64,000 nt of DNA from Pempheris klunzingeri. Lineage: Eukaryota > Chordata > Actinopteri > Acropomatiformes > Pempheridae. Shown piece by piece: positions 20,776-55,684 of this stretch (position 1 is its first letter; the number at the start of each line of letters is the position of its first letter). The stretch covers positions 10,351,618-10,415,617 of the forward strand of contig NC_092013.1 of assembly GCF_042242105.1 (NCBI RefSeq), read 5' to 3'. Below the pieces are notes generated by a model. That model made no database searches and was not told the origin of the DNA. It was given only the letters and a program-made list of their open reading frames with translations. The position numbers were made by a program, and so were the translations under genes.

Positions 20776-23250
20776 CTCCCCTCCTCCTCATCCCGAGGGT
20801 TCCTCTGCTCTTCCTGAGTTGCCAAAGAAGTCCTCCTCCACCGCCTCCCGTCAGATAAGATTTCAGACAAACACTTTGGTTTGCCTTTTCTTGAAAACCT
20901 TGACAAGAGTTTTCAGGCTTTACCGTAGAGAAAATGTGCCATTAGAGCAGTTTTTAGCATGTTTGTTTCAGTCAGTGCAGAGTTAGAAGTCGTCATAATG
21001 CGGTGGATATCCTGAAGCCAGATATGAAAGTTGAGGCTCTGCTCTGGAGTGGAAACAGTAGAGAATCAGCCGTAGTAACTAACTTGTCGTCCGGTTTACA
21101 CAGACCAAGTAAATCAGAGCTTAATCTTGATTTAAGGCTTTTTGTTTGTTAAATCTTATCTGGCTCTACATCCTCGAGTTGTTCTAACGCCGGGACCCAC
21201 CAGGTAGCACCAATACAGTCTGAGTCCCCTCATCGTCATTCTACGCTGATGTGAGCAGAGGTCCACGTGTCCTCCTTCGATTTGCACTATTCAAAAAGAC
21301 TGAGCCTGGAAAAGCAATAGTGACGCCTGAGAGCCCAAGACGAGGACTCACTCTTAGCGAGGACGGCGGGAAAGTTCCTAGAAGGTGACAATCCTGTAGA
21401 CACCAAGCAAAGGTATCCTTTCTACCAATGCCACATGAAGAACGCTTTCAGAACTTTTTCCACCTGTGGTACCTGCGCTCTGTCACTGACTGGTCGTGCC
21501 AAAGGTTCAGCTGCTGGCTTTGGGGTGTTTTTATCTGTTTGTGTTATGGTTTTGCTACCCCTCCCCACCCCTCTACCCAGAATCCTGTGTGTCAATTGTG
21601 AGCGATTAATCACGTCTGAGGAGGAGGAGGAAGTTTTGGTCCAATCCAGTCATGGGGTCACACCAGGTGTTAGCTGATCTGGGAGCAGGCTTGTGTTTTT
21701 TTTGTCTTCTGCTGTCCTTCGCTCTCTCTCTTTCTCGGCTTCGCCAACTAACTCCTGAGGAAGATGAGCGTTTCTGTCCAGTGTACGCTGATGAAGAAGA
21801 CCGAAGTGATTGCATCTTTACATGCTGCCTAAAAGAAAAGAACCAAAGTGCATGTTTATTTTTCCTCATTATGAAAGAAAAGAGAAGGAAAAAAAACAAG
21901 CACATTGAGACAGAATTAATGAGAGTGTTGGGCTTCACTATACGGTGAACAGCACATGGTGAAGACCTTATGTTTCTTTTCTGTGTGAAACTATTGGGCT
22001 CCTTTCCCCAATGCCCCCAGTTTCACAGATAGGTGTAAAATCACCCCGCACCCAGCTCCACAGTCACCATTGGCCGGAGGGGACACATGATTTTACGACC
22101 TCAGCCCAAGAAAACCAGTTCACCCCCACTGAACTTTCTCTTTCTCATCGTCTCCTGAAGTGGAGAGACCACTTCTCTTTCTGATGTCTCTCCTCAAGTG
22201 GAGAGACCAGTTCTCTTTCTGATGTCTCTCCTCAAGTGGAGAGACCACGCTCTTTCCTGCTCCCTCTCCTCCTGCAGAGGAGAGAAGCTCAACTCAGCTA
22301 GGCTCTGTCTCAGTGTGGTCTGTACCAGAACAGCCACCTCCTTCATGGTAGCGACACAAGGTCCTGCCTGAAGTAAACAGATCAGAGCCAGCAGGCACGA
22401 CCCAGAGTCTGCCAGCTGATAACCAACAACAAGAGCACAGAGCTGCTAACTAATAGGAACAAAGGAGCGACCAGATTCCTCCAGCCTGCAACCACACAGC
22501 AACGGACAAGAACCACACCTTTCCTCCAGCAACGAGCTGAGAAAGCAGCATCCTCAAGCACAACAAGAGTTTGATGATAAAGGAAACACTGGATGAGTAG
22601 TCAGAGCATGAGAGGGAAAACAGAGGGAGATGAAGTCAATGAGACGGTGGAACAGTGAGGCTTGAAAATTCAGTTTGAGTTACTGTATGTGAAAGACTGT
22701 AATACACTCATGCCTGAAGCGATGTTGCTGTTCTTCAATACCATGGCCTTTAGATGGTGCCCTTGTATCACTCTATTGTTTCCTAATAAGTCAGATTACT
22801 TTTTAACAATCATTTGTCATGAGAAAAGAGGTGTCAGAGATTTATCTACTTTTCTTTTTTTTTTTTAAATCTCAAGAGGAATATTTTAAAACTGTTTTGT
22901 GTGATGTTTCTGTCTGTTATGGATTTCTTTTCTTTTTGTTCACCAACATGCGATCGACGTGAAGCTCTGTGGACGGGGGTTCTGAATCTAACTTCATCAG
23001 CGACACTATTATGAGAGGCTTTTGTGTAGTTGTGTGTTCTGTCTCGTGTCAGGATCTGTAACCGTTGACAGGCCTGTTGCTGAGCTGAAAACTTTTATTT
23101 TATTTTTCTAACAGTGATATTGTGTTAGCACTGAAATTTAACTTGCCTGCTTCACCCGAAACCCACTGGTGTGAGTCGTCTGATCACGGCATAACGAGCA
23201 TTTTTTAAATTTATTTCAAATGTTGACATATTAAAATGTCTGTGGAAACA
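20776..23250 (+). other. b4galnt1: b4galnt1 3' untranslated region (probable extent)
   Basis: No coding sequence follows the TAG at 20773-20775. A possible polyadenylation signal is ATTAAA at 23230-23235; no nearer canonical AATAAA stands out. The stretch contains the stem-loop array at 22150-22284. The 3' end is not firmly placed. Confidence 0.4.
22150..22284 (+). repeat. array of four short inverted repeats (tandem stem-loops)
   Basis: The unit GTCTCTCC-TCAAGT-GGAGAGAC (8-bp stem, 6-nt loop) occurs at 22186-22207 and 22224-22245, 38 bases apart, joined by a conserved TTCTCTTTCTGAT spacer. A related imperfect copy precedes it (22150-22169). A fourth hairpin, CTCTCCTC-CTGCA-GAGGAGAG, follows at 22264-22284. 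It is both a minisatellite and a series of hairpins. Confidence 0.8.
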
Positions 23251-25771: not shown

Positions 25772-28700
25772 TTACTGCTCGTTCTCCTTGAGCTGATCCA
25801 GGCTGTTTGGTCGATGAGCCGAGTAACTCCCACCTTTATTCAACGTGGTCGCCTGGAAACTGGCGGTGACACTCTGAGAGGAAAAAAAAGCAAACAATTA
25901 GATGTTGTTTGTACTTTAAATCTGCAACTGCAAATAGAAGAATGAGCATTCCTGCTTTATATTTCTAGTGTTACAGAACGATTGAACTTGTTTAGACACA
26001 GCAATGACAGGCAGCACCTCATGATTTTCAAAGATTCCTCATTACTAAGACAATTAATGTTCTTTGTTACTTTGTGAATTGGCAGAATAAAATTGAAACA
26101 ATACACAAACTGCCAGGTACAATTTCAAAACCACTAAATTATTAGATAGAAATGAAAAAGGATTCATAGAGTTAATCACATCACCTTGATATAAAAAATC
26201 TTGACAATACATTTTACAATTGTACACAAATCCAGTCCTTTGAAATATTTTTAAAGCTGCATTAATTGTGTTTTATTTGGCCACTTGGGTGAAGCAACAT
26301 ATTATCACAAAAGTATTGAAGCTAACATGTTAGCAAACATTTGCTTATTTACACACCCAGCAGTCATAGAGCAAAATTATCATGTATTTGCATTTGCGCT
26401 GTAAGTCCAATATATTCTCTCTTTTAGCTCCTGTTTTGGTTTCTATCAACTCCTGAGGGAAATAGCCTGCTCTTTAGCTGCTAAACGCTCCAGTGTGATC
26501 TCCAGCTAGTCGCTAACTGTGTCCGTCTGTGTGCTGTTTGGTACTGTGGGTTTTTACAGCTTTTGTTGTGTTTGTAAAACTAGGTTGATGAGAGCAGCGA
26601 AGATGAACCAAAACAGTAGAGTTGTAGCTCATAAAAGCAAAAGGATAAAGTGAAAGACACCAAAAAGCTCAAGAAAGTTGATGGTGTAAAGTGATCACAT
26701 GACACAGAGTGATTTGATCAAATGTTAATATATCAATATTGATAATGTGGCTGAAGAAGGGGTGTATGAGTTGGACCAGAACCTCAAATGTATGTTTAAA
26801 CTTAACTGGTTCTGGATTTTATTTTAAAAGAAATAAGATTACAGAGCTGTAAAAATGTCATGTTGTTCAGAAACAGATATCAACTATAAAAAGTCTGACA
26901 AAGGCTTCACCCTGAAGGCTAAACAGCGTAGAAAAACTGGTTTTAGGAACAGGGGAAACCTGTCTGAGTTCCTGCACGTAACGCAGGATGGAAACACTGC
27001 TGATCCAACAACAAAAAGAGAGAGAATAAGAGTACAAGAGCGACTTTGTGGAATCGAGCCAGATTAGAGCGTCTAATAAGAACACCCTGATCAAACCATT
27101 TCCTCCTCTACGTGGAAGTCTGAGTGAAAAAGATAAAACAGCAGGTCAGGGAGTTTTCCACAGAGTGGATGACTGAAAGACACCGACTGGAGATCAGGTC
27201 GAGCAGGTTTGTAAATCCACGCAGAGACAACAGCAGGATATTTGACAAAGGCAACCAGAGAGTCATTTCCCCTCATCATCAGTGATCATGACAACAAAAC
27301 GACCGCAGGCTGCTGACACTGAGATAAAACTAAACCAGTAATTTCATTTATCCTATGCACACACTAACTAACTTGCTAACTTGATACACTTGATAAGAAA
27401 GACAGAGGTGGAAAGTGCTGTTCTGTTTCCAGGTCAGTTAAACTTTTCATTATGTACTTGATGGTTCTAGTTATTTAGTAGTTACATTGCAGATATTTTT
27501 TTATATACATAAATGTCCAGAAAGAAGTTTAAAGTGATGCATTTATATCATCTCCCTAATGATGCCCTGTGAGGCTAATGTGATCTGTACTGTTGAGCTG
27601 CACATTAAATAAAATTGACTTAACCACATAAAGATGAACCATAAACATTTAGTGAAAAGGCTGTTCTGGGTTTACACATGTACAAATCAATCCACAACTT
27701 TTACTTTTAACACAAAACATTTCTTAAGAGTGACTTATTGTGTGACTTTGTGATAGCAGGCTGAAAGACAACATCTCACTCCCTGGTAGAAAGTGTTTAT
27801 GGGCAGAAATGTACTGTGTTGCACCTGTAACCACAGGTAGGGGGGTAAGTAAACAGATGATGATGATGATTTACCCCTTTGTAAAGTAAGACTGATGTAC
27901 CTGGGCGCTGTGCTGGCTGCAGGGCGGCAGGCCATTGGCCATCCCGCGGCCGTGTCTCTCCTCTGAGCGCAAACTGAGCTGCTGATGGGAGGAAAGCGGA
28001 GGCTGAGCCGACTGAGGTGTCGCAGCACCAGGATTAGAATCCTTGAGACAGAAAGAGAAACCGATGAAAGAGGATGTCAGAGAAAGAGAAATGTATGAAT
28101 CTCATACAAGTGTGCGAGGCAGCCTTGCTGTTCACTCACCATCTTCGAGGCCAGGCTGTGTTGTGGTGGATGCAGCGAGGGCAGGGAGGTGTTGTGGATC
28201 AGCAGGCAGGGCTGCTGACGTCGTTCCATGGATGCCGAGGAGTGAGGTCGCAGGCCAGGGGCTGAAGCAGTCGTAGCCGTCATGTTCCTGCCCAGGCTGT
28301 TTGACTTGCTTTCCCTGCGTTGGTACTCTATAGGAGACTGCAGGGCTACAGTGAGAAGGAAGAGATGTCACATTACTCACACGAACCAGACTCTTAAATC
28401 TGTGATTTATTGAAGAAACACTGAACCCCGGTACCATTAAGGAAGTTCCTCTGAGTCTCTAAGATCTGGACCACGTCATTGAGCCAAGCTTGCTGTATTT
28501 CCGGAGATGATGCCTGCATGATGAAGCGCGTCACGCTGCCATTAGTCCCACGGGAGGTCAGGACCAGACAGCATGGATCCTCCTCGGAGTGCTCCTCCAC
28601 GCCCAAACAGCTGACCTGAAGCACACAGGGCATTTATTCAACACTAAACACTAAAGCAATGATATTTCAAAGGTGATTTAATACACAGTAAGTGTTATGC

Positions 28701-31700
28701 GCACCTTGATGCTGTTTTTAAAAGTGTACCCAGGCAAAGAGAAGCCTTTTTTCTTATCTATTGGCTCACTGAAGATGACCAGCTGCTCAAACAGGAAGAC
28801 CCGCCTCTCTCTGGCTCTGGACAGGACGCCGCTTTCCTGCTCGCTGACAGAGAAGGTATCCTGCTGGAGCAGCTTCCCCTGAGCTGTGATTTTCCCCTGA
28901 AACAGTGAGTAAACATTGTCAGAGCCCGTAAGTCGCCCTGGATATGTGTTTCATCTGTGGTGACAGACAGAAAAAAATCAGTATCTCACCTCAAAACCTT
29001 GGAGCCTGCCCACGTTCATCATATCATTACAGCGTTTTGGCACAAAACACATCACCTCCACCGCCCTCTGATGGGAGGAATTGGACGAAGGAGAATCAGG
29101 AAGTGAATATGTGATATACAGACTCAGAATACAGCTTTATACACTCAGTTGCCAGTTTAGCAGGAGCATCTGACTATCCTCCCTTCATGAAGGTGATAAT
29201 GTTCAGTTTTTGTTTAAAGTTTTTAGAGAGATTTTTTAGAGGATGTAGTTTGTGGTACTGTTGAGCTGTATTGCATTATACCAAGGTGTTTCTGTCATTT
29301 AGCTCACTGATATAAACGGGTATAGGATATAAAATATCAGAAACACCTGTTTCTAATAAACTGAGTGTGTGTGTGTATTCACATTCTATAAGGAGCTCTT
29401 ACCTGCAGCTCCTCAACATCCCGTCCTGCTTTGCTGTAGTACTTCAGGAAGTCCTGCCAGTCAGAGAGAGGCTTATTTAGAGTTTTAAGCACACTGCTTC
29501 GTTAAGGAACAAAAGTTAAAAAGTATATAAAAAGTTATAGCTGCTATAGATTAAAAATAAGGCAAATGTGTGTTGACCTCACATTGGTCTTCCTCAGGGT
29601 TTCTGGGAAGACCTTTACGAAGCTGTGAGACCTTTCAATTCCTTCCTTGCAGGCACTGATTGTATCTTGTACATTGTAATTCAAATGATTTAAAAGTAAT
29701 ATTAAGATGCAGAAACATGTGAAACAGTAACCTTCAGCAGTAGCTGGTACTTCATGATCCTTTGAACAGGTTTGATGAGCAGATCATTGAGCTGCAGCCT
29801 GTGACCCAACTGCTGCCTGAGATCCTGTCAGGTGACAAAAAAGAGATTCAAGATTCAAGACGTTTATTGTTACCCAGATGTACATGTGAACTCAGAACAT
29901 GTGAACAGAAAACATAAAAGGAAAAATATAAAAATAAAATAAAAGATATGGAAAGATGTATAAAAGCCAAATAAATACAAGTGGAATATAAGGTAATAAG
30001 GTATAACTAAACAAGGCCTATGAATATAAAAACAGCCATATTTCCTGACAACAAATATAAAAAAAGTATATAACAAATAAGGTATAACAGCAATAGAGGG
30101 ATATGGAAAGCATAAATAAAAGCAATAAAAAGTGCTTATACAATCAGAAAGTGTTCCAAGTAAAAAGTTTTTGAGCTCCAGTAAAAGTGGCTGTAATGTA
30201 AAAGTTTACTCACCTCAAAGTAGGTCTCAATGTACTCGGAGACCACATGTTCTGATTTGGGTTTGTTCTGACAGTAAACCACATACATGTGAAGACGTCG
30301 TTCCTGGAAACGAAAGAGAGAGAGAGAGCTCATGTGACAATTATTCAAAATAATCTGTGTGTGAGGGACAGCGTGAAGAACGGACAGAGACAGAATTAAG
30401 CTTCAGACTCCAAGGTCCTTCTCAGTTTTGATTTGTTCCCGTTCCCTCTCTTTTTTTGGGAGTTACACTCAATCAGTGCACGACCTTTTGCCTCATTAAA
30501 TAGTTCCAGTGGCTGAGAAATAATGGTTTAATTTGCCGTGGCTTAATTAGGCATGCCACACTACACTGAGTGGAGTGGATAGAGAAGCTGAGCTGGAAAA
30601 TGAAAATATTTGTACTATTTTTCTACAGTAGTTTATTTATAGTTTACAGATATTGGTATGTAGCGTGCTCTGAGTGTTCTTTTTACTGTTTTACATCACT
30701 AAATCTGTGTAATCAGTATCTTTCATTTCAGCAATCATTTTTTGTGATTCTGTTTGTACCTCCTTTGGATCAGTTGGTAGAGATCTGTTTTCACTTTGAC
30801 ATGAAATAGTCCAAAGTTCAGAGTAAAACAGTTACATGTGAAAAATTCCAAGGTCAAAGTGAATACTTTTTTATCGAGCTCTGAGATCTGTAATTCCAAC
30901 TCATTTTCACACACAGCGTGGTCTCAACGGAGCATCTTTAACACTCACTGTCGGCTTTCAGGGGTCTATAGTCGAACCATAGTGATTAAAAGACCTTTGT
31001 TCTGCAGCTGCACCTGCAGACAACTGATCTGCAAGATGAAGACACATCTGGATGGCGGCTGGCCAGGGCTTTACACACAGTCAGTGGGCCAATCTGTGAG
31101 ACGGCTGCAACCTTCAGCCAAAGTGAAAACATGCGGAGAGACGAGAAAAGAGACCTTTCATCTGCACTTGTTACGCGCTGCTCTGTAGACTCACGTGTTT
31201 GATGAAGAGCTCAGCCACGCTGTCTGGGTCACCCACACATTTCTCCAGCTCTCCCAGGAAATAACTGTGTGACATGAAGCAGAGAAGGTCAAGCAGGAAC
31301 AATCATGTAGCCAAACACACACACACACACACACAAAGGCAGGAAACTAACCGCCACAAGGGACGTGACACAAGCTGAACCATCATGAAGAGATTGTTCA
31401 GATTCAGAGGAAGTGAGAGGGGAAAAAGACAGGAGAGACTCTCTGACTCACTCCTTATGCCAGTCGTAGATCTGGTGGATGTTTCCAAACACAATCCTGT
31501 CCTTCCCTTTCATGTCCTCTGGAACTCCCTGATTGGTCATGGTGGCCATGTAGCCCTATACATATACACACAGAGAAACATGTCATTAATCACATTTTCC
31601 AGATGGAAAAATAACATTTATTTTGTGTATAAATGTCATGAGCGTGGAGGAGAGACACACCTGTACTATGAGCCCAAGATCCTCCACATACAACCTTTCG

Positions 31701-34700
31701 GTCTCTATCAGCTCTGTCAGCACATATCTGAGAAAGAGATTTGGAAAGAGCAAATAAAGGGCAGGAACAGAGAATTTACATTTTTTTCAAAATGAATTCA
31801 AAAATGTATACACGTTAAAGGAAGTTAGACATTGTGGGAAATACGCTACAAGTAAGATGAGAGGTTTGGTACCACTCTAATGTTTGCGTGGTAAAAATGA
31901 AGCTACAGCCAGTTAGTTTAGCCTAGCTTAGCTTAGCTTAGCATGAAGCTCTGTCAAAAGGTCACAAAATCTGCTTCTAATCTGCAGCTCAGATTAATAC
32001 ATTATGTACATATAGCAAACAAAACAAACATTTCGCAAAATGTCAAACTAGTCCTTTAATGCAGAGATCGACACCTACAAGCTCTTCTCTAAGGCAAGGT
32101 TTCTCTCCTCCTCGCTGTCCACTGTAGCAGACCACTGGCTGGCTGAGTCATCAGTCACAGTGCAGCCGTCGTCCCCTTGGAGAGTGTTGATGCTGGATTT
32201 TTGACTCTAAAACACACAAACAAGACAGTACAGCGTTTGGTAAACATCACTGTAATATATTATGTAAGAGGAGACAGACAGCGAGCAATCCTGTTCTGTC
32301 GGGGAGAGAAAAGTACATTTATTCAAGTACTATACTGAAGTATCATTTTCATGTACTTTCCGTGGGTATTTTCAATTACTTCACTGCATTTATTTGATAG
32401 CTACAGTTACTAGTGACTTTTAAGATTAAGATTTCACATAAAAAAACACATATATGCTGATAAAATCCAATGAATTTGAAGACTAAACCAGCGACTCTTA
32501 ACATTTTTGGCCCATGCAACTCCGTACAAAAAGCAGCACCTACAGAGGGTCCCTTATGTCTAGTGAGTAGCAGAACATTTTATCCTCTTTATTCTCCCAT
32601 TAATTATCACAGTGGGGCAGCTGTGGCTCAAGTGGTAGAGCGGGTTGTCCACTAATCACAGGGTTGATGGTTCTTCTGTCCACACGTTACCATGACTGAA
32701 GACCAATGGTCAGGCCAGCATCTTTCTGTCGTCTGAATGGGTGAATCAGAGCCAAACTGTGAAGCCATTTGGATAAAAACTATATATGAATGCAGCCGCT
32801 GGACTGAACCTCAACCAGCTACAACATTAAAATTGCACTTTCACATTGATGAATCAGTATTAACGATCAAATAATATCATGTAATAATATATCAGTCACA
32901 GGGGCCATTCTTCTGCATAATTTGTACTTTTATTTTTGATACTTCAGGATCTTTTTGCCGATAATGCTTCTATACTTGTATTTAAGTATATATTTGTTAA
33001 TATAATATCTGATGCTTGCTCATGTGGGGATTCTTGAATGCTTAATTTTGAATTTTTGAATCGTTGGGTCTCCCTCTTAATTAAAGAATTTGGTCTAGAC
33101 CTGCTCTTTATGGAAAGCATCTTGAGATAACATTTGTTATGAAATGGCGCTATATAAATAAAGATTAATACTTGGCATCCTTAAATTGTTGTACTGGTGC
33201 TTTTACTTCAGTAAAGGATCTGAATACTATGAATATAATATGCTGTGGTGAAGAGACGTCAAATCAGTGGGCATCCACAAACGTAAATCATTATGCTTCA
33301 TCTACAGCCTCCCCTGACCGTGCCAGTGCACATCTGTAGAAAAACATGAAGATGAGCCGTCTCTGATCGTGGGGACCACATCAGTTGGGCAATTTTACCG
33401 ATCCCTTTTGGAAAGTCATGCCACCCCCAAATCCTGAGAGTAACCTGAGAGTCATAATCACTTTTTAATGTCTCTCCTTGCAGCCGAGCACACTGTTGGG
33501 CAGAGAAATTTGGAAAAGAAGAATCAGGTCTGACAGATGAAGATGAATAATGAGCAACATTTGTACAATTTGTCAAGCTGGATGATGAAGGTCGGGGAAA
33601 CTGGCCACGGCATGGAGAGTTGTTATATAACATAAGATCAGTCCTCACCTAAATGCAGTATAATCTAATGTGAATTTGACTCTAATCTTCTTGACACACT
33701 GTAGTCTCCCCTCATTTTGGCCTCTTGGGCACTAGATGATGATCAGTTTGTAGGTCAAATATGCACTTTCCATTTATTTTCTCAACATTTTCTTCCAAGG
33801 TCAGTCTTTTTTGCTCTGTTGCTCTCTTTGAGTCGCCTGTTAATGTCTTTGCCCAGCAGACATCCTGCTAATGAAAATCATCTGAGGCTGATTCAAACCC
33901 CATCTCCGCTCTGGTTCTGATCCATTTAAACTGCTGAGCTTAGCTTGCTTGTTGCTCTAAATGTTTCCTCCCTCTCTCACAGTAATTTCTCATCAGCCTG
34001 AAATCCATTAGCTCCTCCGAAGACCACAAGGAGATTAAAGGTATAGTTCGACATTTTGGGAAATATGTGCCGAGGGTTGGACTGGAAGATCAATGTCATT
34101 TTCATGTCTGTAGGGTTGCTATGAAGCTGGAGTCAGTATCGAGTTAGCTTAGCTTAGCATAAAGACAGGAGTAAACAGCTGGCCTGGCTCTGTCCAAACA
34201 TAACAAAATCTGCCAACCAGCTCTGCTAAAGCTCAATAATTGTTGCATCTTAGACACAAAAAAACAAGAAACAGCCAAATCACTCTCTTAGTGATACTTT
34301 ATCATAATGACATGGTCACGTGAGACCTATATTTTGTTTGTTTAATCAGTATGAAAACCGAAAAGTAAGAATGACAACTTGATTTTTATTGGGGTTAAGT
34401 GTGGGACTAGAAATTTACTGCTCCCGTCCATGAAATAGTTGATCTCATAAATCCTCAGTAAACAGTGAATTGTCATTTTTATACTTTCAGACAAACGAGA
34501 CAAAGTAGTGATCTTCTGAGCTCCAGTCTTTAAGCTAGGCTAAGCTAACCGGCCACTATAGCTTTACATTCACCAGATAGACGTGAGAGTGGTAAGCAGG
34601 CAAGACAGAAATTTTCCAAAAAGTCCCAAACTATTCCTTTAAAAAAATGACGAGGCTGTCTGTTTACCCTGACCCAGCCAGGACAAGAATAAAGGGCCGA

Positions 34701-37700
34701 GGAGCCAAAGCAAACATAAAGATGAAGGTGTCTGTGGAGTAATATCGTCCCAAGGGGCCAGTGAAAGTGAAGACAGCCATTTATCAAGTAGAACAATGTA
34801 CTTCATGTTAAAGGGTCATTTCAACCCTTTAAACTTTCCTCTTCTCTCTTGTGTAAAGCTTGTGTAACTTGACTCCCTCACGTCTGAAGGAGTGCTGACC
34901 AAGATTCACACGCCTGTTTCTCACTGTGCACATTGGCCTCCTCTTCCTCCTAGTTCCTCCTAATTTTGGCGGACTACACCGACACCCTTCTTATTTTTAT
35001 TTGTAGGTATTGGCTGTTGGGTTTGTGGGATTTCTCAAGTGTATGAGAGCAGGTGGAAGTGATTGCTTATGTGACAGGAGCAACTCCAGAGTTTTGTCCA
35101 CATCTTCGACGTCGTTAAGGTACGTCTAGTCCAACAGCCAACTCCAGTATTTATGTTCACGTATGGCCGGCGGCTCTGGAGATCCCCCGGACTAATTAGC
35201 TACACTGCTCACCCCCAACCTTGACCCTGTTTCAGCCTGTTACAATCTACTTGGCTAGTTAATTACATCCAGATGTTGTCTAGAAAAGCCCACAGGATTG
35301 ATTCCACTCCACAGGGCCTATGTCCTAAATACAGTGTAGGGTTAACAGAAAGTCATTGTATGTGCGTGCGCATGTGTGTTTGTGTGTGAGTGCTCACACA
35401 AAAATTCGCAGCAAAGTGTGAAAATCTGTGCTATTCATTTGGCACAATAGGTGGAAGTGAAATGATGTGTGCAAATAAAAAGCTCTTCACATGCCAATAA
35501 AACTGAACAGGGCGCAGAGGAACACATGCATGCTTATAATTCATAGTTTCAGCGTGAGTCGTTTTCACATTTAAGTGTGTGTGCTTCAATCATTCATGTG
35601 TCGTGAACTCATGGTTTGATGAAGATAACTGTGAGAGGAATGAGGACTTTTGACTTATGCAGTTTACATTATTCATGCTTCATTTGGGGTTTTTCAACTG
35701 CTTTGCCTGGTCAGCTACTGTAATTATATATTATTAAGTGTACTATAGGTTCCTCAAACTGTTTCTATAATGCCCTTGTGGGCAACCAAAGTAAAGCAGA
35801 TTATGATAAGATTATTTCTACCGTCACCTTGATTGCTTGTTTGTATGATTCAGTTTTCTAGATCTTTAGTTTTTATTGTATTATCGAGTCAAGGACATAT
35901 CCCAATCTTTTCCATCAATTTATCAATCTATCCCTGACAAAATCTGGTGTGTTCTGGTGGGTAGCTGATCGCCCAGACCCAGCCTGTGGCCACTGTTATA
36001 TAATATATAATATGTATATATAACATGGAATATGTGGTAATATAATGTATCTTTTATCTGTAACTGGACCTCTGAGTAGAATAGAATAGAACAACATAGT
36101 ACTGAATAAAATAATAGGGTAGAATAGCATGGTATAGAGGAGAATAGAATAACAAATAAACAATAGAACACTAGATTAAACTAGGATAGACTAGAATAGA
36201 ATAGAATAGAAACATTACCAGACTGTGCGTGTCTCTGCCTTGCAGGATCTCAGGTAAGTGGCCCTGACAGGGCGGCTGTGTGGGAGCTGCTGGACTCGAC
36301 GGACCGTCTTTCCGCACCTGTTCAACACAAACACGCTGACGATTACAAACAGGGAAATGAAACAGGGTATGAACGCAGCCTGTACGTGTCTGTCTTTAAG
36401 CCCCACCGTGTCTCCAGGGGAGGGGAGGATGGTATAGTTGTCGTGCGTTTCCAGAGGCCTCGGCTGAGGTTCACTGTGGGAAAGCAGCGATGGCGGCTGC
36501 CTGCTGTCTGACCTGTACATCTGCTTCTCGACTTTTCCCGTTCCTCCTCTGGCATCAGAGCTCAGCTTGCGAACGGGATTGGTGAGCCATTTCTTGAGGG
36601 CACTGACAGGGTGGCGTGATCCTCCAGACGTGGAGTGTGAGTGTGTGGGGCTGGAGCTGCCTGAGGCCTGGTGGGGCACCGGGCCCACCGATGGGGTAAT
36701 ACTGCCGTCACTGCCCGCCACAGCGTACGACTCTGCTGCAGAGAGACAAAGAGGGAAAAGGATTGGGTTAACGCACAGCAGCTAATTGGGGGGTACATCC
36801 TCTCAGGTCAGATGCTGCAGACAGATTTCTGCACAAAAATGTTGTTCAATTTCCTGTGTTAAGCCCTAACTGTAACTTTAGTCGCTGCAGCTACTGTAGA
36901 CACTGATCCTAAACCATTATAAACACAAAAACAGATCCGTTCTCATGAGGGAGCACTCAACGTCCAACTGGAAATTATATACCATATGTCATATTATATG
37001 TACTGCAACTTGCATTTGCTGGAACTTTTTTTTAATAACAAATAATTTGATATTATTTGACTACATTGAATACTGTACTATAGCTTCACATATCAAAATT
37101 AGCATTTATTTATTTTATATGCTTATCATTTGACTTTAAAGTCTTAATCTGCAAAGTAACTAGTAAATAAGTATAACTACCTCATAATTGTAATTAAGGA
37201 AATGTGTTTGAGTAAACGGTACTGTTACTTTCTCCACTGAATCATGAATAGGCCAACACACAGTTAAGACACTGAATTATGCTATTAAACACAAACTCTC
37301 CTTTACCTCAACTACAACTGGACTCATTTTACTGACTTTCTAGAGATGATTTAGTTACTAAAAGAAGCATTTACAGGATATAAACTGAATTATTTTTCCA
37401 GTCTCCAGTGGATTATGTGATCTAAAGTCACTCACAACTGAACGCATCGTGTCTGCTCTGTACTGCCCTCATTCTTTCTACAGTTCAGGCTGGACCATCA
37501 CTGGAGCTGACACCCTTTTTACAGCACAGCTGGATTTTGTTTCCAGCTTTAAGTCTCTTGACTATGGAAACTGGTACCTAATCCTCAACCACACTGTTTT
37601 AATCAAGCACCCTAACATTAACATTTCACTCTGTTCTGCTGATCATAGCAAAGTGGAATCTTTCAGGAGCCCCACTTTGTCATTTTGGACTCTTCCCAGA

Positions 37701-43700: not shown

Positions 43701-44859
43701 TTCCAGGCCTTTTTTGTGCATGGCTGACAAATACAATATACTTTATATCGTACAATAGACACCGCATTTGCCTTCACAGATAAACTGAAAACAGGGACAA
43801 AAAAGCCACCGACATGCTGTAGTGTGCAACACTATTTGCTGGTAACATTATGGGGCTGTAGCTCGGTTGATACATTAAACATGACTTAAATTGCTGCTAA
43901 CAGTATCTAATTACCTAAATTAATATGAGGAAATTCATTGTTTCAGCTAATCCTTCCAAGGGTAAAAAAATGTTTGGGTGCTGTGGTCATGTCATAACAA
44001 TGCAAACAATATCGTACACCTGCACAATTTACCACTGATGAATATAAACTAGCATATCAAGGCAAACGTGAGCTAATGTAATATAACATGCTAATAGTAG
44101 GAAGGGGCGTGCAACAGGATGACTAGCAACCACTTTGAAGCTAAAGTGGATTCAAAATAATAATGAAGAAAGTGTTTGGATGGTGTGTGTGGGGGGGGGC
44201 TACAAGAGATGGACTGTAAGCAGAAATAATGTTACTGAGTGCATTTCATAGATTTTTGCACAGATAGATGCAGGTTGCACTCAAGATTGTTACAGAATCT
44301 ACAATATAATCAGTGGAGTGTTCTAAATCCTGTAAAAGTGAATAATTTCTTATATTATGTCGTGAACATGAGGTAAATTTCTGTAGGAAGCCTTTTGTCT
44401 ACACAGCGCCATCATTTTTCTGACTATATAATGCTGCTGGCCTCTCACAAACAGTAAGACTAGACAGTGAATGGATCAAAAACATAATAAAATGAATTAA
44501 AATGTTGCACAAAATCTGCATAGTGAAACGCTGATGAGATTTTACTCTGCTTATTGCGAGAGAAACAAACTTTGGCTTTGATAGATGATACATAAGAAAG
44601 TAGCAACATCTCCATCGTGCACAAGCAACAAAAACAACTGTTGGCAACAACTTCAGGAATTTGGAAAATCATCCTAATATGAATGTGTAATCAGTGAAAA
44701 CTTTGCTCTGCAGTCAGAGAACAACCACAGTGAAAGTCCCCCTGAAGAGCAGAGGGTCTACGTACCTCTAACCCGGACAGAGCAGCAGCCACATTTGCTG
44801 AGCAGTTTTCTGAACAGGTGCTGACACCCACACCCTCGCTGGTGGTGACCCCCTCTCAT
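25772..44859 (-). CDS. arhgef25: ARHGEF25 (p63RhoGEF/GEFT), Gq-activated Rho guanine nucleotide exchange factor, complete
   Basis: The protein loads GTP onto RhoA-type GTPases when activated by Gq/11 alpha subunits at the plasma membrane. Coding exons in gene order: 44859-44766, 36732-36407, 32206-32079, 31727-31661, 31555-31452, 31264-31195, 30303-30214, 29824-29732, 29453-29403, 29067-28990, 28896-28705, 28615-28435, 28345-28140, 28041-27901, 25873-25772. Phases agree; total 640 residues (human about 580). The N-terminus [20 protein letters not shown] keeps the palmitoylation cysteines C23, C25 and C26. The DH domain runs from about 183 to 345 ([38 protein letters not shown]). The PH domain runs from about 368 to 490 ([15 protein letters not shown]). 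The Gq-binding helix ([20 protein letters not shown]) crosses the 28435/28345 junction. The Ser/His/Pro-rich tail ends LKENEQ. The exon 2 donor is weak (ACG|GTGGGG); CAC|GTACAG 21 bases further is also in phase. The 29732 exon donor GTTACT is unusual. Confidence 0.95.
29845..30140. repeat. A-rich interspersed repeat in arhgef25 intron
   Basis: AGATTCAAGATTCAAGACG followed by TTTATTGTTACCCAGATGTA and a long run of ATAAAATA-type sequence resembles the 'tttattgt' repeat at 15960-16420. Non-coding; boundaries approximate. Confidence 0.4.
31815..32060. mobile_element. palindromic MITE, shorter copy
   Basis: The left end TTAAAGGAAGTTAGACATTG and the right end, reversed as TTAAAGGACTAGTTTGACAT, are inverted repeats. 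The interior has the TTAGCCTAGCTTAGCTTAGC and CATGAAGCTCTGTC blocks typical of a very abundant teleost element, also present at 34035-34642. It ends about 19 bases from the splice donor of the arhgef25 exon at 32079. Confidence 0.7.
32612..32797 (+). mobile_element. tRNA-derived SINE
   Basis: GGGGCAGCTGTGGCTCAAGT then GGTAGAGCGGGTTGTCC forms a tRNA-like head with an A-box (TGGCTCAAGTGG) and a degraded B-box (GGTTGATGGTTC). It is followed by TGAATGGGTGAATCAGAGCC and a tail with TTTGGATAAAAACTATATAT, matching a well-known fish SINE layout. It is in an intron of arhgef25, opposite the gene, and decayed. Confidence 0.75.
33070..33172 (+). repeat. SINE/LINE 3' end fragment
   Basis: TATGGAAAGCATCTTGAGAT, then AACATTTGTTATGAAATGGC and GCTATATAAATAAAG are the common 3' terminal sequence of fish SINEs. 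Only the tail is seen. Confidence 0.6.
34035..34642. mobile_element. palindromic MITE, full-length copy
   Basis: Starts TTAAAGGTATAGTTCGACAT and ends, reversed, TTAAAGGAATAGTTTGGGAC. The two arms repeat each other's blocks inverted: TTAGCTTAGCTTAGCATAAA at 34145 and AAGCTAGGCTAAGCTAACCG near 34531. Elements of this kind occur in thousands of copies in teleosts. It sits in arhgef25 intron 2. Confidence 0.75.
36076..36211. repeat. (AGAAT)n pentanucleotide repeat, imperfect
   Basis: AGAATAGAATAGAA units recur at both ends of the block with diverged copies between (AGAGGAGAATAGAATAAC and similar). Confidence 0.75.
36733..44765 (-). other. arhgef25: arhgef25 intron 1 (about 8 kb)
   Basis: No coding exon is recognised. 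It contains a decayed interspersed repeat at 38630-38945, AT-rich single-copy-looking sequence, a short CATG run near 39650, and repeat-like blocks near 41590-41700. The 3' end on the minus strand is a tandem acceptor, GCAGCAG. Confidence 0.6.
38630..38945. repeat. decayed interspersed repeat (LINE 3' region type)
   Basis: CATCCATCCATTTTCCGCTG, then GGATCGACTAAACAGGGTAG, GGAGTTCCCAGACCAGATGA and AATCTCTCCATCGTGTTCTG follow the layout of a very common fish repeat that ends in 'catccattttc..gctg'. Class not assigned with certainty. Confidence 0.65.
44766..44859 (-). other. arhgef25: arhgef25 first coding exon encoding the palmitoylation motif
   Basis: It opens with ATG at 44859 and ends AGAG|GTACGT with one base of the next codon. 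The 31 codons include KCGCC, matching human p63RhoGEF residues 22-26 exactly; these cysteines are the known plasma-membrane anchor. It is separated from exon 2 by an intron of about 8 kb. Confidence 0.9.
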
Positions 44860-47347: not shown

Positions 47348-47453
47348 CTTTGCATCCTGCAGCCACACTGAACTTCCTGGCCCACTTGAACTGCGTCTGG
47401 ACGTCCTGATTGTTTTTAGCTGACAACAGTTTCTCCCGGCTGGTGTCTGAAAT
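47348..47453 (-). other. putative alternative coding exon of arhgef25 (second of two)
   Basis: Preceded by a TTTTTGCTTCATGTGTTAG acceptor and followed by AAAG|GTAACT. The open frame encodes 35 residues beginning ISDTSREKLLSAKNNQDVQT and including FKWARKFSVAAGCK, plus one spare base. That is phase 1, identical to the phase in which exon 1 enters arhgef25 exon 2 at 36732. I do not recognise the peptide. Coding status is inferred from frame, composition and splice phase. Confidence 0.5.
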
Positions 47454-48450
47454 CTAACACATGAAGCAAAAATATGAGTGAGCAGGTGAAATAAAAAAGA
47501 CAATGATTTAATGTGAACTTAAAAACACCTTGTCCTCTTTACCAAATGCATTTATTTGTAGCTATATTTGTATTTAAATGTACAGTATAAGTGTGACAGA
47601 GTTAGGACCTAAACAAACACTTTTCCGCTCTATTTCCGCTCTCTATTTTTGCCTCATCTTAAGTGGTTTCTTATCTTATCTGAGGAATTTGTCTGAGAGG
47701 GTTAAACTGATCAGGGTACAGGACAACATCAAATCCCACGCTGAAGTCTGAAGATTAAGTTCAGTTCATTTTATCTCATATCTAATCTATAAAACACAAC
47801 AGGACTTGATTTTTTTATGGATACTGCCACAGAAACTACCAGAATAGACCTTGATGAGCACAAGATGAAAAAAATAAAAAGAACTGTTTATAAAGTTTAT
47901 ACCGCAGCTGCAGCTTGTTTAATTTTGATGGACTTGGCATCGAAAATTCACACTAGTCTGTGCCTCGCTGTGTGTGCATTCTCCAAATTAGAAAGCACTG
48001 TTGCATAAATAGCAGCAAAATGTTGTCAGCACATGAGCTAAATGAGCACAAGTCAGGACACGTTTTCTTAACCATGGCTGAGAAGGACTTATCCTCACTT
48101 CAGTTTTTAAGACAAATGAACACGACAGTGTTCAGATTATAGAATGAGCAGCAACAATGAGTAAATAGCAAATCATTTATTCCAGATTTACATGAAAGAA
48201 TCAGGTTAATATTGCAAAACTGCATAAATGGAGAGGTTTGACTGAAGCAAATTAAAAATCATCTGGCACAGATACTGAGGTTTCAGCATGTATACAATAT
48301 TCTGACTTTCAGATGAGGTCTTCTTGGGTCTCACTCTTACTCAGCATATGTGAATGTGTATAATAATTACAAGTAGCCAAAGTTTATACATGCACGTTTT
48401 TAGGATTGAAGCTTGTTATTTCCATCCACTGGAAGAATGAAGACACTCAC

Positions 48451-48513
48451 TTTATCAACACTGTATCCCAGAAGTTGTTCAGTCCTCTCTTGCACTTTTG
48501 CCAAAGTCTTCAT
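48451..48513 (-). other. putative alternative first coding exon of arhgef25
   Basis: ATG at 48513 with A at -3, an in-frame TGA 18 bases upstream, 21 codons beginning MKTLAKVQERTEQLLGY, and a strong donor GATAAA|GTGAGT. It ends in phase 0, which matches the phase 0 start of the 47453-47348 exon. Together they encode 56 residues that would replace the palmitoylated N-terminus. No 5' leader boundary can be seen. Confidence 0.45.
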
Positions 48514-51048
48514 TTTGCATCCGTCGCTTCAGTTTTTCATTGAGTTTGTCCTAATGTGTCTCATTCTTGTCCCCTCTTTTAAGCATCCATGCCTGATCCT
48601 TTTAATTTAATCAGAATGTAGAAATTAACTAGAAATGGCTTCAGAAAAAGATCTCTGCCATGCTGCCTGATGTTTAACAGAAGGACAAAAGTAGGTGATC
48701 TGTGCTTTGCACCAGATCTTTTTCTCCTCTGAGCAGACGAATTGGACAGCTGTCCAATTTCAGAGGGATCTGTCCTCAGGCCGCTCTGGATAAGAGGGGG
48801 TCAATCTGTCCAGACAGGTCCAGCCATGTCCCACAGGTCCCATACGCTAGTTTCAGGAAATGACCATACCCAAAGCAGGAGGTTTAACAAAACTTTAACT
48901 AACTTAAGTGTTTAATTACAGACCATACTGCCTATAAGAACTTTTCCTCTTTTTATTTTTGTTTGTTTTGTTTCATTCACTTCCAACTTTTGTTCCAGTT
49001 TGTACACTTAAAGACTGCACCACAAGTACTAAAGAGGACCCAAACAAATACTTAAATCCTCACTTCACAGAACGATGGATCTCAGATTAAAATCACGTTA
49101 ATGCAGTTTGCACATTCCTGATATTCAGGACACAGATATAACTGTATCAGTTTCAGTTTCACTCTATTATGACCAAATTAGAAAGGCTGAAGTCAGATTA
49201 GAGTGTGTGAGAGATCCCCATCCTGTGGTAAATCTGAGAACCAACATGACTCAGCCTCAGCTGCTGCTGCTGTTCTGTGATACGACTTTTGCTGCTGTTT
49301 GGTCCCATCTGTTCAGGGTACATCTGATGGGATTTGATCGTCCTTTAGTCAGTCTTAACAATTAATTAGATTCCTCTGGCCTAAGCAGCTTACAGTTGAC
49401 ATTTTATACATTTAAAATTGGATTAATTACTTATTTCTGGATGGAATACAAAATACTGTCGGTGATTTGTATATTTTAACGAGGAATTTGTGCATAAATG
49501 CATATTTATTCATTCAAGACAGAAAACAAGGTGTGGTTGTTGTTGTCGTCCGATTGTTCTAATTGATTCTCTCACAACTTTACCTTTCCATGCTCCTCTT
49601 ATCATGTTCTCATTTATTTTTCAGACAAAACATCTCATCCTGATTTGTGCCATTTTATTGTGGGTGCCTGTGAAAGTTCTGCAAGAAACTTTCTGTAGTT
49701 TAGCCACATAAAAAAACTGGTATAAGCACCAGGTAGAGTATGGACAACACTGGCGTTGTGCTGAGAACGACAGTGGCCAGAGTAGTGCGTAATCCTCTCC
49801 ATAAAGCTGTTGTAAGTGGGATGAGCTAAGCACAGAGTCTTCACATATAGACACACAGTATCTATATACGAAGACTGTGCCAAGACTCCTCCTCTCAGTT
49901 TTATGTCATCACGACAACATGTGGGATGGAATGGGTAGAGTACCTCTATTTACGAGCCCAGGAGGAAGCTGTGACCTCCCAGATGCTCTGAAAACACAGT
50001 AGGAGTGTTGGAGGAAGTCCGAAGTCGTCCAGAAGAAGTCACAAAGGTGTGGTGTACATTGGCCAACACGTGGGTGCATCTACATTCACAGCTGATTGAT
50101 CACCTTGTATGGTAAGTGTATGATATTAATGGTCATATATCAGCGTCCGTTAGTTTGACCAAAGTGAATGTACGTACTGTCTGTGATGACGAAGGACGGT
50201 AGATGCTGCAGCTCTGAATTTTCACTTCTTTATTTTGGTTTCATGACTTATGGTTTCGCAATGGTCTGTGACATAAAAAAATTTGACATGTCTGTTCTCA
50301 AACATTTTTCATAGTAAGAAATGTTTTCTTTAAAAACACAGTCGTAACAACTAATGTCGTGAAAATATATTTAAAAAAAAATTATGTTTTGAATATTCAC
50401 AAATATTCACCCTTCTGCTGGTTTGATTTCACAGTGTCAGGAACACTTGAGTGGACTGTAAACATTTCCATATGATTACATACAAGCATCAGCGATAGTA
50501 GAAATACTTCAAAATCATATATTAGCTTCATAAAGCAGCAGTTGAGCCACAACCTGAGTTGACCAGTGCCACATGCGACTGAGGTTATTCTGAGGTGGGT
50601 TGTTCCTCATTTAGCAATCCTGTATGTTCAGCAGGGCTTTTAGATGCTGATCCAGTTACTCAACAGTAAAGGCACACTGAGCTCATAACACACTAATAAT
50701 CCCTGACTGACAGACTCATGTTAACCTTTGTCAATCTGACAATATGCAAACTTCTGATCTTTCAATGCAGCAGATCTAAAGCTGTATATATACATCATGT
50801 TTAATCAACGACTTAATGTCTACAATGATGAGATGATTTTAACTTTGCATTATGTGTAATTACAGAGAGCTTTCTAAAGAGGAAAGATTCATCCTCTCTG
50901 AGTTTCTACCTCTAGAGCAGACCTGATTGGATGTTTTTTGCTACACACAGAAGCCAGTGCCTTCTACTGGACTATTTTCTATTTTTTGATTGTCTCGCAG
51001 ATGTAGCCAAAGGATACAGTCTCATCTCACCTGTTCTGCTGTTGGAAG
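48514..51048. other. intergenic region between arhgef25 and ankrd33 (head-to-head)
   Basis: No gene recognised. It must hold the ankrd33 promoter and leader and probably the distal arhgef25 promoter. TTGTCTCGCAG ending at 51000 would be a plausible acceptor for the ankrd33 first coding exon, with about 48 bases of leader before the ATG. Confidence 0.4.
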
Positions 51049-54000
51049 ATGGCCACTGCAGCAGAGGACCCCCACCTGGGCTCAGGCCCTGATGAGGATG
51101 ACGAGTCTGTGTCGGGGAGCGAGTCCGACTCAGACAGCATCCTCTCTGATGACTCGGTGCTTCCAGTCTACACGTCTGAGATGACAAACGGACGTACAGC
51201 AGCAACACTGTACCAAGCATGCGCCCGTAATGAACCCGTCTCTCTGCAGAAAGTTCTGGAGAGAGGGGTCACAAAAGAGGAGGCCATGGAGGTGGACATC
51301 AATGGTTGGGTGAGACTGTTATTCATAACGGTGTTAATTCAGAACCTGTATTTCACAGCTCCTGTCTGCTGAAGTGTCTAAAACCCTCCCACTGTCATCG
51401 ACTATTACCAACAGAATGGCTTGATGGTGGCTTGCTGCAAAGGTTTCGTGGACATTGTTTATGGGCTTCACGGCTGTCCCTTCATTGACATAAATCACCA
51501 GGACAATGAAGGCAACACTGCTCTGATAATTGCATCCCAAGCAGGTAGGTTGTGCAGACACACCAAACACTGACAAAACAAAAAAACAAAGCAAAGGTCG
51601 AGTTCATTGGATAAAACAGTAAAGTACAACACGAACAACTGAGCTGCCTCAATAATGGTGTAATTCGCCAGTAGCAATCATCACATGTGGCAATATGGGA
51701 CTTATATAGACTGAAACTGGCAGACTTTATCATTTCAGTTCATCTTGATGCAAAACACCATCTGAGTCAAGTGAATTGAGACTTTTGTGAGCAGCGAAAC
51801 CAGTGTTCAAATGTTACACATTCTCCAGCACACTTTGTTGATCTGTCCTCTGTTTTTATCTCCAGGTCATATCAACACAGTCATGTACCTCCTAAACTAC
51901 TATCCTGGTATAGAAACTGAAATAATTGATTGTCGAGGTTTCACAGCCCTCATCAAAGCTGCAATGACCGGCCGTAATGACATCGTGGCTGCCCTTGTGA
52001 TGGCTGGTACGTAAGAGCTGAAGCACAGCTATGATTCTTCTGGCACAGATGATTTCAATGATTCATTATGTTTTTTGTTTGTTTGCTTTAAGACATATTT
52101 ACCATTTTTCTTAATTTCCCACTTTTTGTCATTAGAGTCTGCTATTTTAGTTAATTTTGATCACATTTTTGCATAATGTTAGCGTTCTTTCTGAAAATGT
52201 ACACATTCTGGAATTGCTGGCACCATACTAATACATCACATGTTGTTCATTGATAGAACATTATACCTAAAAAGGTAATTTTATATTGCACATTAATTTT
52301 GACTTGAATACAGTAAAGACAACCGCTCAGATGCATTTCAAGGCCTAACTTTTACAAACCCAATTCTCTGCACTCATACAGGAGCTGCTGTACAATGATA
52401 TTAATAGGTCTTTTTTGAAACCCTGTCATGAGCTCATTAACCAGGACTCCAAATGAGCAGTTACAGCACTGGTGGTGAGAATAGCTGAGCCCGCGGTTTA
52501 CCTGTCCATATTTGAAGTCAGCTAGCTATGTTTGCGAGTGAATGTGCTAGTGACGCCAGGCTGGTTTAAGGGATCATTCTGAGGACATTACACATCTTAC
52601 CACACCCTCCAGTAATCTCTGATTTACGGGTCTTGAAGGGTGGTTGTAGATTAGCCACTTTCATGGCTATGTTTAGACTGCACGTTTTCCTAAAATCACT
52701 GCCAGTCAGATTTGTCTAACTGCAAATAACTGCTATTTTCTTTACGGATTAATCAGCTTTTATTTTCATGATTAATTGCTCGAACTTGTAGTCTGTGAAA
52801 TGTTAAATAATGCTGAAAAATGGTCATTTCTCAGAGCTGAAAATGATGTCTGCAGTTTGCTTGTTTTGTCCAAGTAACAATGCAAAACATTAAGATTTCT
52901 AATTTACTGTCATATATGATAAAGAAAAACAACAACTCGTCACTGAATCATTTTCTTTCAATCTACTGATTAATTAATTGACCAATAATTGCACCTCTAT
53001 CTCACAGCTAAGGTCCTCCCATAGACTATATAAAACAGGGATGGACAATCTGAATAAACTGACATGTAGCTCAGTAATAATGACGTTACTTATACTATAA
53101 TAATAATATAATTACTAATATAAACATAAATAATACTTACTATATTTCATATATTTGCTGGTGATGTTACAGTATTGTCATTACTACAGTAGGACCTGAT
53201 CACTGTGTGACAGACCTGTCCAGCTGAAAACTAACTGGCTGAACTTTCGATTAGATGTCATTAGTTGTTGTACCTCTCTCCAGTTTTAATATATGGAATT
53301 AATTTAACATTATTTTATTGAAAATCAATCAAAAATCAATCTGTATATTTAAATATGTAGACATTATGTTGGTAATGCTGTAAAGGTGGTTTATTGTAAG
53401 GCTCTAATTGCTGCCTAAACAAACCTGTGCCAACAGGCCTTTTTCATTTTGACATGTTGAAAAAGTATAGATGTAAATAAATCAATGACTGAATTTCATT
53501 TAGCTGTTTCGGTTTGAGAGTCGAGGTATTGTGCATGCTGTCTCACTGTGATGACTTACTGAGACACTCGAATACAAGAGAGTCGTTGTTATGTTATTAT
53601 TAACACCTGCGTTTTGCCTTTTTGGTGAGTTTTGGTGGTTTTGTCACTTTATAGCAGAGAATATACAGGTGTGATTAATCATGACAAACAGCTACAGGGC
53701 CTGGGGTGTGTGCATGCCGCTTGACTAATATGGCATACTGAAACACCATCTCTCTCTAAAGTGGACTAGAGCTATGATTAATAATGACACCTGCGCTTTT
53801 CCTGCTATGAAAAGCCAGAATGGCAACCATTAAAAGGGCCTATCAGCTCTCTGCTAATCTGAATAACGTGAAAAAAAGATGAATGCATTATTCATTTGAA
53901 AATTATACCTCTGCTAATTCCTTATCTTTATTTCCAGGGGCTGACCTAAATGCAGTAGACCCCACAAAAGGAAAATGTGCTCGGGAATGGGCGCTGAAAA

Positions 54001-54779
54001 CAGGTCGCTATGAGACCTTGCATCGTCTCCGCCGCCTTAATCTGCGGCCGAGGGCAGAGCAGTTCTGTGAGAGTTATGTCCCTGAGTGGCCTGAGCTCAA
54101 GGAGAGGGTGGAGAAAGCCACAGCTGAGAAAAGTGCCAGGGAAAAAATTACCCAGCGGATCAAAAACACATTTGGATTCAGATTTCCTCGTGACCCCGAG
54201 GACAATGGGTGCTTGGACCACATGGTGCGCATGACCACCAGTGTCCATAGTCCCCTAATTTCAACTGGATGCCGTCCGCTCTGCCCTACGAGCCCTCCTG
54301 AGGTGGGGAAGAGGCGTCTGGCTGTGCCAGAGCTGGTAAAGAAACACCCACCTAAGGAGTTAGAGGAAGGCTCCGTGTGCCACAGCACCGGCTCAGTATC
54401 ACACATCATTCCCACAATCCACTCTGCAGAGTCCATCAATGCATCGTGCTGCGCTGAAAGTGAGCGGCGAAGCAGCATCCTCTTAACTGCTTCCAACAAA
54501 GTTGCATCTACATTTATTCCCCGCAGCATGGCGAGAAGGAACAGCGTGTTCCCCTCCGGCTGCATCCCAAAGATCAACGTCAACAGGCCCACAGAGTCAA
54601 CGCCAAAGAAACAAAAGAAGAAGAAGATGGACAAGGGCTTCCTGGAGCCACCCAAGTGGAAATACAAGGAGATCAAGGATGAGAAAAAGAAGGACAAGAA
54701 GAGAGCAGAGAAAGAAAAGGCAGACAAAGATAAAAATGAAAAGAAAAAAGAAAAACAGAGCAAGAGGGCCAAAAAATAA
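51049..54779 (+). CDS. ankrd33: ankyrin repeat domain 33 protein, complete
   Basis: The mammalian orthologue is a retina/photoreceptor ankyrin protein described as a transcriptional regulator; function here is inferred by orthology. Exons: 51049-51309, 51415-51544, 51866-52006, 53938-54779; phases agree and give 457 residues. The N-terminus is acidic and Ser-rich (GSESDSDSILSDDS). Ankyrin repeats occupy roughly residues 60-200: NGLMVACCKGFVDIV, DNEGNTALIIASQAGHINTV, GFTALIKAAMTGRNDIVAAL, then AGADLNAVDPTKGKCAREWA. The block LDHMVRMTTSVHSP and the tail PPKWKYKEIKDEKKK match the mammalian protein. The last about 60 residues are extremely Lys-rich and could serve as nuclear localisation or nucleic-acid contact. 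The third intron (52007-53937) is the longest. Start context is GAAGATGG. Confidence 0.93.
52007..53937 (+). other. ankrd33: ankrd33 intron 3
   Basis: AT-rich, no exon or clear repeat recognised. It ends in a TTTATTTCCAG acceptor. Confidence 0.6.
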
Positions 54780-55019: not shown

Positions 55020-55684
55020 CAGTACTGTGCAAAAGTATTATGCAGGGATGAAGAAATGTTGTAAAGTTGTTGTAAAATTTAATTGTTCATTTTTATCAAT
55101 TGACAAAAATTGCAAAGTGAGCAAACAGAAGAACACTCTAAATCAAATCAATACTTGGTGTAACCACCCTTTGCATTCAATGCAGCATCAATTCTTCTTG
55201 GTACATTTGCACACAGTTTTCGAAGGGACTCAGCAGGTAGGTACATTTTGACTCAGTCCAGAGAACCTGCTGCCAGTTCTTATGTTTTCATGCATAATTG
55301 AATCGCTTGGCCATGTTTCCATGTCAGAGGTTTGGGTTTTTGGCTGCAATTCTTCCATGAAGACTTCTGCGGACAGTAGATGGGTGTACCAGGGTCCCAC
55401 TGGTTTCTGCTAATTCTGAGCTGATGGCACTGCTGGACATCTCCCGATTTCGAAGGGAAACAAGCATAATGTGTCTTTCATCTGCTGCACTAAGTTTCAC
55501 TAAGTTTGCTGTTTTGAAGGCAAAGGGTGGTCACACCAATAATTGATTTGATTTAGATTTTTCTTCTGTTCACTGACTTCAATTTGGTAAATCGACAGAA
55601 AGAAACAATTAAATGTTATATTTTTGAAAGCATTCTTATTTTACAGAATTGTTCACACCTGCCTAAGACTTTTGCACAGCACTG
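55020..55684 (-). mobile_element. decayed Tc1/mariner-type transposon with terminal inverted repeats
   Basis: Ends CAGTACTGTGCAAAAGT and, reversed, CAGTGCTGTGCAAAAGT, matching at all but one position and flanked by TA on both sides (55018-55019 and 55685-55686), the Tc1/mariner target duplication. On the minus strand near 55500-55330 a frame reads LSAADERHIMLVSLRNREMS, then STVRRSLHGRIAAKNP, the helix-turn-helix part of a Tc1-like transposase. Stops follow, and at about 665 bp the element is too short for the catalytic domain, so it is inactive. It lies downstream of ankrd33, possibly in its 3' UTR. Confidence 0.85.

Follow-up and report, generated by a model that had tools for sequence, protein, structure and literature searches.

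The minus strand of a 64,000-nucleotide stretch of the Pempheris klunzingeri genome (contig NC_092013.1, positions 10,351,618 to 10,415,617; hereafter the window) carries an arhgef25 gene, whose alternative N-terminal coding exons are our subject. Its DH-PH exons (28287..31726) were placed by a structure match, by Pfam matches to RhoGEF and SOS1_NGEF_PH, and by tblastn with a human protein sequence. Among solved structures, a 32-residue DH exon was closest to 2rgn_B (Rho guanine nucleotide exchange factor 25; E 1.5e-13), with Trio (5.9e-12) and Kalirin (2.7e-07) both behind it in this comparison of a single DH exon, and an exon encoding the motif KCGCC lies upstream of the DH-PH exons. Judged by sequence, the gene is arhgef25.

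The known first coding exon, of the palmitoylated p63RhoGEF580 type (44766..44859, minus strand, like the other exons of the gene discussed here), was recognized from its sequence, from tblastn with the human protein and from its copy at a sister locus described below; it encodes 31 residues and has phase 1. About 100 bases before its start codon, at 44964, lies a strong 3′ splice signal that suggests an untranslated leader exon of the palmitoylated form. The common exon to which the alternative N-termini are joined (36407..36735) can begin at either of two acceptors, 36735 or 36732, and its 3′ end at 36407 is a predicted donor. This tandem acceptor (CAGCAG) makes a difference of one alanine, and both of its sites keep the frame.

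Two further exons lie upstream of the palmitoylated one. Exon A (48451..48513), which we take to be the first coding exon of a p63RhoGEF619-type isoform from its sequence and from homology with the sister locus, spans 63 nucleotides (21 codons, translated as MKTLAKVQERTEQLLGYSVDK), ends in phase 0 with a GTGAGT donor, and begins with an ATG in the sequence context GCAAAATGA; an in-frame TGA stands at the sixth codon 5′ of that ATG (48529..48531). Exon B (47348..47453) probably follows it as the second coding exon of that isoform, judging from its open frame, phase fit and codon usage: it is entered in phase 0 after an acceptor ending in GTGTTAG, encodes ISDTSREKLLSAKNNQDVQTQFKWARKFSVAAGCK plus one base, and leaves in phase 1 at a GTAACT donor. 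With either acceptor of the common exon, its ESYAVAG is in frame from A plus B just as from the 580-type exon, and the frame is lost if exon A is joined to the common exon directly. Exons A and B thus fit the common exon in phase as two putative alternative N-terminal exons, and the preliminary description of this DNA, which had proposed them, had their positions, phases and splice signals right to the base. It had also predicted that their product would lack the KCGCC membrane anchor, and indeed the 56 residues contain a single cysteine, with no KCGCC and no other palmitoylatable cysteine cluster. We make no claim of an amphipathic helix, since the peptide's hydrophobic moment does not stand out from that of shuffles (p 0.37).

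An N-terminus of this kind has been described in human. According to PMC5105084, human ARHGEF25 gives rise to three products: p63RhoGEF580, which is palmitoylated and membrane-bound, GEFT, and p63RhoGEF619, published in 2016, which has two alternative first exons and no palmitoylation sites and is cytosolic but recruited by Galphaq. Its authors describe the N-terminus of the 619 form as well conserved across vertebrates and GRTD at residues 10-13 as conserved, though not as a definition; zebrafish and pufferfish appear in a figure legend that names the species they compared. The construct printed in the paper's Methods, once translated, starts MKPPDRPAPGRTDRILGVMGGMLRACALPGQ and meets the common exon at ...QPE-SYSIAG. 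A literature search for arhgef25 together with alternative promoter found nothing; arhgef25b is an expressed zebrafish gene (PMC4482254), and the accessible part of that paper contains no mention of its first exons that we could find.

The evidence that ties exon A to this human isoform comes from a second arhgef25 locus in the same 646-Mb genome. Queried with the 580-type and common exons, the genome gave a locus on another contig (C11) that matches the common exon at E 2.2e-14 and the 580-type exon at E 1.5e-7, and so has its own copy of the palmitoylated exon. The gene that adjoins arhgef25 upstream in the window has a counterpart there too, matched by two of its coding stretches, 51046-51333 (E 1.1e-23) and 53943-54770 (E 2.2e-31). 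Because the same neighbour accompanies both loci, we regard them as duplicated segments, which presumably stem from the fish genome duplication. Elsewhere, the region of the common exon has weak matches at G000:C8:10183378-10183509 (E 0.002) and G000:C10:26462104-26462271 (E 0.04), which may be related genes such as Trio or Kalirin.

The sister locus contains a 619-type first exon that bears GRTD (G000:C11:12002329-12002234, minus strand); from there it is about 10 kb downstream to the 580-type exon. Its 96 bases encode 32 codons (MKALQKNQGRTDQMLGAMADVLTSVAMPNQQW), and like exon A it ends in phase 0 with a GTGAGT donor and has an in-frame stop upstream of its ATG. The two fish exons are identical at 11 of 20 residues; their alignment score of 48 was equalled by none of 20,000 shuffles, and the runner-up among the 761 ATG starts in 40 kb of the sister locus scored 21. 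The sister exon aligns with the human p63RhoGEF619 N-terminus at a score of 57, again with no shuffle of 20,000 as good, and tblastn over the same 40 kb finds it with the human start at E 3.4e-04 and with exon A at 0.001. At the DNA level, 34 of 60 nucleotides are shared between exon A and the sister exon, a value reached by just one of 79,880 ungapped windows, the site itself. Their 20 aligned codons comprise 4 that are identical, 7 with synonymous differences and 9 with residue changes, the differences falling 8, 6 and 12 times at the first, second and third codon positions, and in the 30 bases 5′ of the ATG only 11 are shared. Since the sister exon bridges the two, exon A is homologous to the human 619 first exon, and we take it to be a conserved coding exon and the counterpart of that first exon. 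The claim that exon A fits arhgef25 as an alternative N-terminal coding exon therefore gains from its conservation at the sister locus, whereas the description of the N-terminus as hidden and belonging to no recognized family gives way to a published isoform.

Several observations weigh against this reading, as do a few others that we give below with the alternatives they favour. Compared directly with the human N-terminus, exon A scores 14, which 15 of the 1088 ATG starts considered in the window equal or exceed. It has ERTE at residues 9-12, where the sister exon has GRTD, and it reaches its donor 11 codons sooner than the sister exon does. When the 5′ regions of the two loci are compared as gapped DNA (blastn), the 580-type exon and the common exon are listed and exon A is not. 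Searched across the genome with an E cut-off of 0.001, the 56 residues matched exons A and B themselves and nothing else, not even the sister exon; this last result does argue against a repeated element. The similarity of exon A is therefore modest, its basis being the protein sequence and the position in the gene. Other direct comparisons gave mixed results. In an anchored alignment to the human sequence, exon A shares the top score among the 135 minus-strand starts of the 5′ region (p 0.0042 by shuffling); with the 72 human residues as tblastn query, its match stands far down among the matches listed (E 46). The pattern M[KR]...RT[DE].[IL]LG, which was devised after seeing exon A, matches exon A alone among 2549 ATGs of the window.

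The case for exon B differs in kind. No homologue was found at the sister locus, either among 13 splice-filtered candidates (best score 19) or among 1215 unfiltered ones (best score 26), and both best scores were judged chance-like by eye; nor is there similarity between exon B and the tail of the human 619 N-terminus (shuffle p 0.16). It is therefore conceivable, although we consider it unlikely, that exon A is the 619 first exon while exon B is open merely by chance and the true partner has to be sought at another place between 48451 and 36735, all the more so as the same splice thresholds also admit another exon of compatible phase, 40030-39955. That candidate, however, has a codon score below zero in the required frame, whereas the codon usage of exon B is coding-like in exactly the frame required. 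In these tests the arhgef25 block 31526-31451 was dropped for a stop in its chosen frame, which left 11 blocks. With the full training set, the score of exon B was reached by 4 of 1271 open non-coding stretches and by none of the 386 matched to it in G+C content; training on arhgef25 alone raised the latter count to 17 of 386, and training on the neighbouring gene alone gave 1 of 386. Moreover, exon B does not resemble the second part of the human N-terminus either, and rapid evolution of this exon may be all that lies behind it. On balance, exon B is the probable second coding exon of the exon A isoform.

A less probable alternative makes A and B a leader that is spliced to an acceptor like the one at 44964, in which case the frame of exon A would be a mere upstream frame and the anchored protein would still be made. 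That acceptor scores a strong 7.9 ahead of the 580-type start codon, and from all seven acceptors tested between 44859 and 45600 the A plus B frame runs into a stop before the 580 start. Such an arrangement would leave unexplained why exon A is kept as protein at the sister locus, and why it resembles a published human N-terminus that is joined directly to the common exon (PMC5105084); we consider it improbable.

Splice signals by themselves prove nothing in this region, because dinucleotide shuffling of the 14 kb concerned produces at least one A plus B chain of equal quality in 34 of 100 cases (mean 0.66 per shuffle). Scored with splice matrices, the donor of A ranks in the top 7 and that of B in the top 13 of the 911 GTs on the minus strand between about 36740 and 51000, and the acceptor of B ranks in the top 71 of 990 AGs. 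The actual minus strand yields two chains, a number matched by 19 of 100 shuffles (two or more), and the opposite strand none. Two candidates for a phase-0 first exon (length 24-249 nucleotides, donor score at least 1) have their donor in 47525-51000, and exon A is one of them. Its codon usage is unremarkable, with 161 of 1255 stretches of matched G+C content scoring as well; 3 of 11 known arhgef25 exons likewise fall below zero in codon score when left out. That A and B are both open by accident and only happen to be flanked by plausible splice sites, as these shuffles and the neutral codon usage of exon A would allow, is nevertheless very improbable indeed, given that no other ATG start of the 761 matches exon A as well as the sister exon does, that no shuffle equals that match, and that the two exons occupy the same relative position in their genes.

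We thus return to exon A as the counterpart of the p63RhoGEF619 first exon, with exon B its probable partner. In both the human and the predicted fish form, an alternative N-terminal coding sequence is joined to the same common exon (...QPESYSIAG in human, ...GCKESYAVAG in fish), begins with a homologous first exon, and contains one cysteine and no cysteine cluster. The window copy differs from the human one in having ERTE for GRTD, in a second part that is unrelated to the human one, and in a net charge of +5 in 56 residues rather than 0 in 71; its first exon also has 21 codons, compared with 32 in that of the sister locus. From p63RhoGEF580, with which it shares the gene, the common exon and the entry phase, the A plus B form is set apart by one cysteine in 56 residues versus five in 31. 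GEFT (474 aa) is likewise without an anchor and cytosolic (PMC5105084) but lacks the first exons altogether, whereas the A plus B form would replace them.

As a whole, the best explanation, and one that we hold to be likely, is that the two N-terminal forms of human ARHGEF25 are made from this fish gene as well. For the anchor-free form, a promoter upstream of 48513 would start the transcript and exon A would be used first, probably followed by exon B, with the palmitoylated exon (44859-44766) skipped and exon B spliced to one of the two acceptors of the common exon (36732 or 36735). The resulting protein would be of the p63RhoGEF619 type and lack the KCGCC anchor. If it behaves like the human isoform, it would stay in the cytosol at rest until active Galphaq brings it to the plasma membrane and switches it on. 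Some caution is in order in calling the predicted fish product soluble, as the basic-aromatic stretch FKWARKF in exon B may have some affinity for membranes.

A switch between membrane-bound and cytosolic forms, which the preliminary description had put forward, is known biology and not new, because human p63RhoGEF619 was published with exactly that consequence. What is new is that the sequences indicate a 619-type first exon in both arhgef25 copies of P. klunzingeri, so that the first exon on which the human choice between anchored and cytosolic p63RhoGEF depends appears to be retained in both; new also is the divergence of the window copy (ERTE for GRTD, a shorter exon 1 and an unrelated exon 2). 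The accessible part of PMC5105084 states no function for GRTD, and its change in one copy offers a natural comparison for the role of the motif. A more specific scenario, which we offer tentatively and with more doubt than confidence, is that after the duplication both copies kept an anchor-free start while the window copy lost GRTD, shortened exon 1 and gained a basic-aromatic exon 2 (QFKWARKFS). If so, QFKWARKFS could bind acidic lipids, and the location or the partner of the anchor-free form would differ from that of human p63RhoGEF619.

Database searches with the 56 residues gave two matches that we find unconvincing, namely DHX37_C in Pfam (E 0.023, under the curated cut-off) and a CAP REPEAT protein in the PDB (0.0021, with no single stretch passing alone). 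The viral contigs searched with the 56 residues and the genome contigs searched with exon B extended into the beginning of the common exon contained no relative, as expected for a fish gene. No repeat of at least 40 nucleotides overlies exon A or B among those listed, which include 25 of 34 inverted pairs.

The gene that adjoins arhgef25 in the window is presumably an ANKRD33-like ankyrin gene, although Pfam matched neither of its two stretches. Elsewhere in the window, 55115-55187 and 55507-55579 form a 73-nucleotide inverted repeat (85% complementary, 319 nucleotides apart) that is possibly a small mobile element, and at 22151-22271 there is a direct repeat with three 45-nucleotide copies listed at a spacing of 38 nucleotides.
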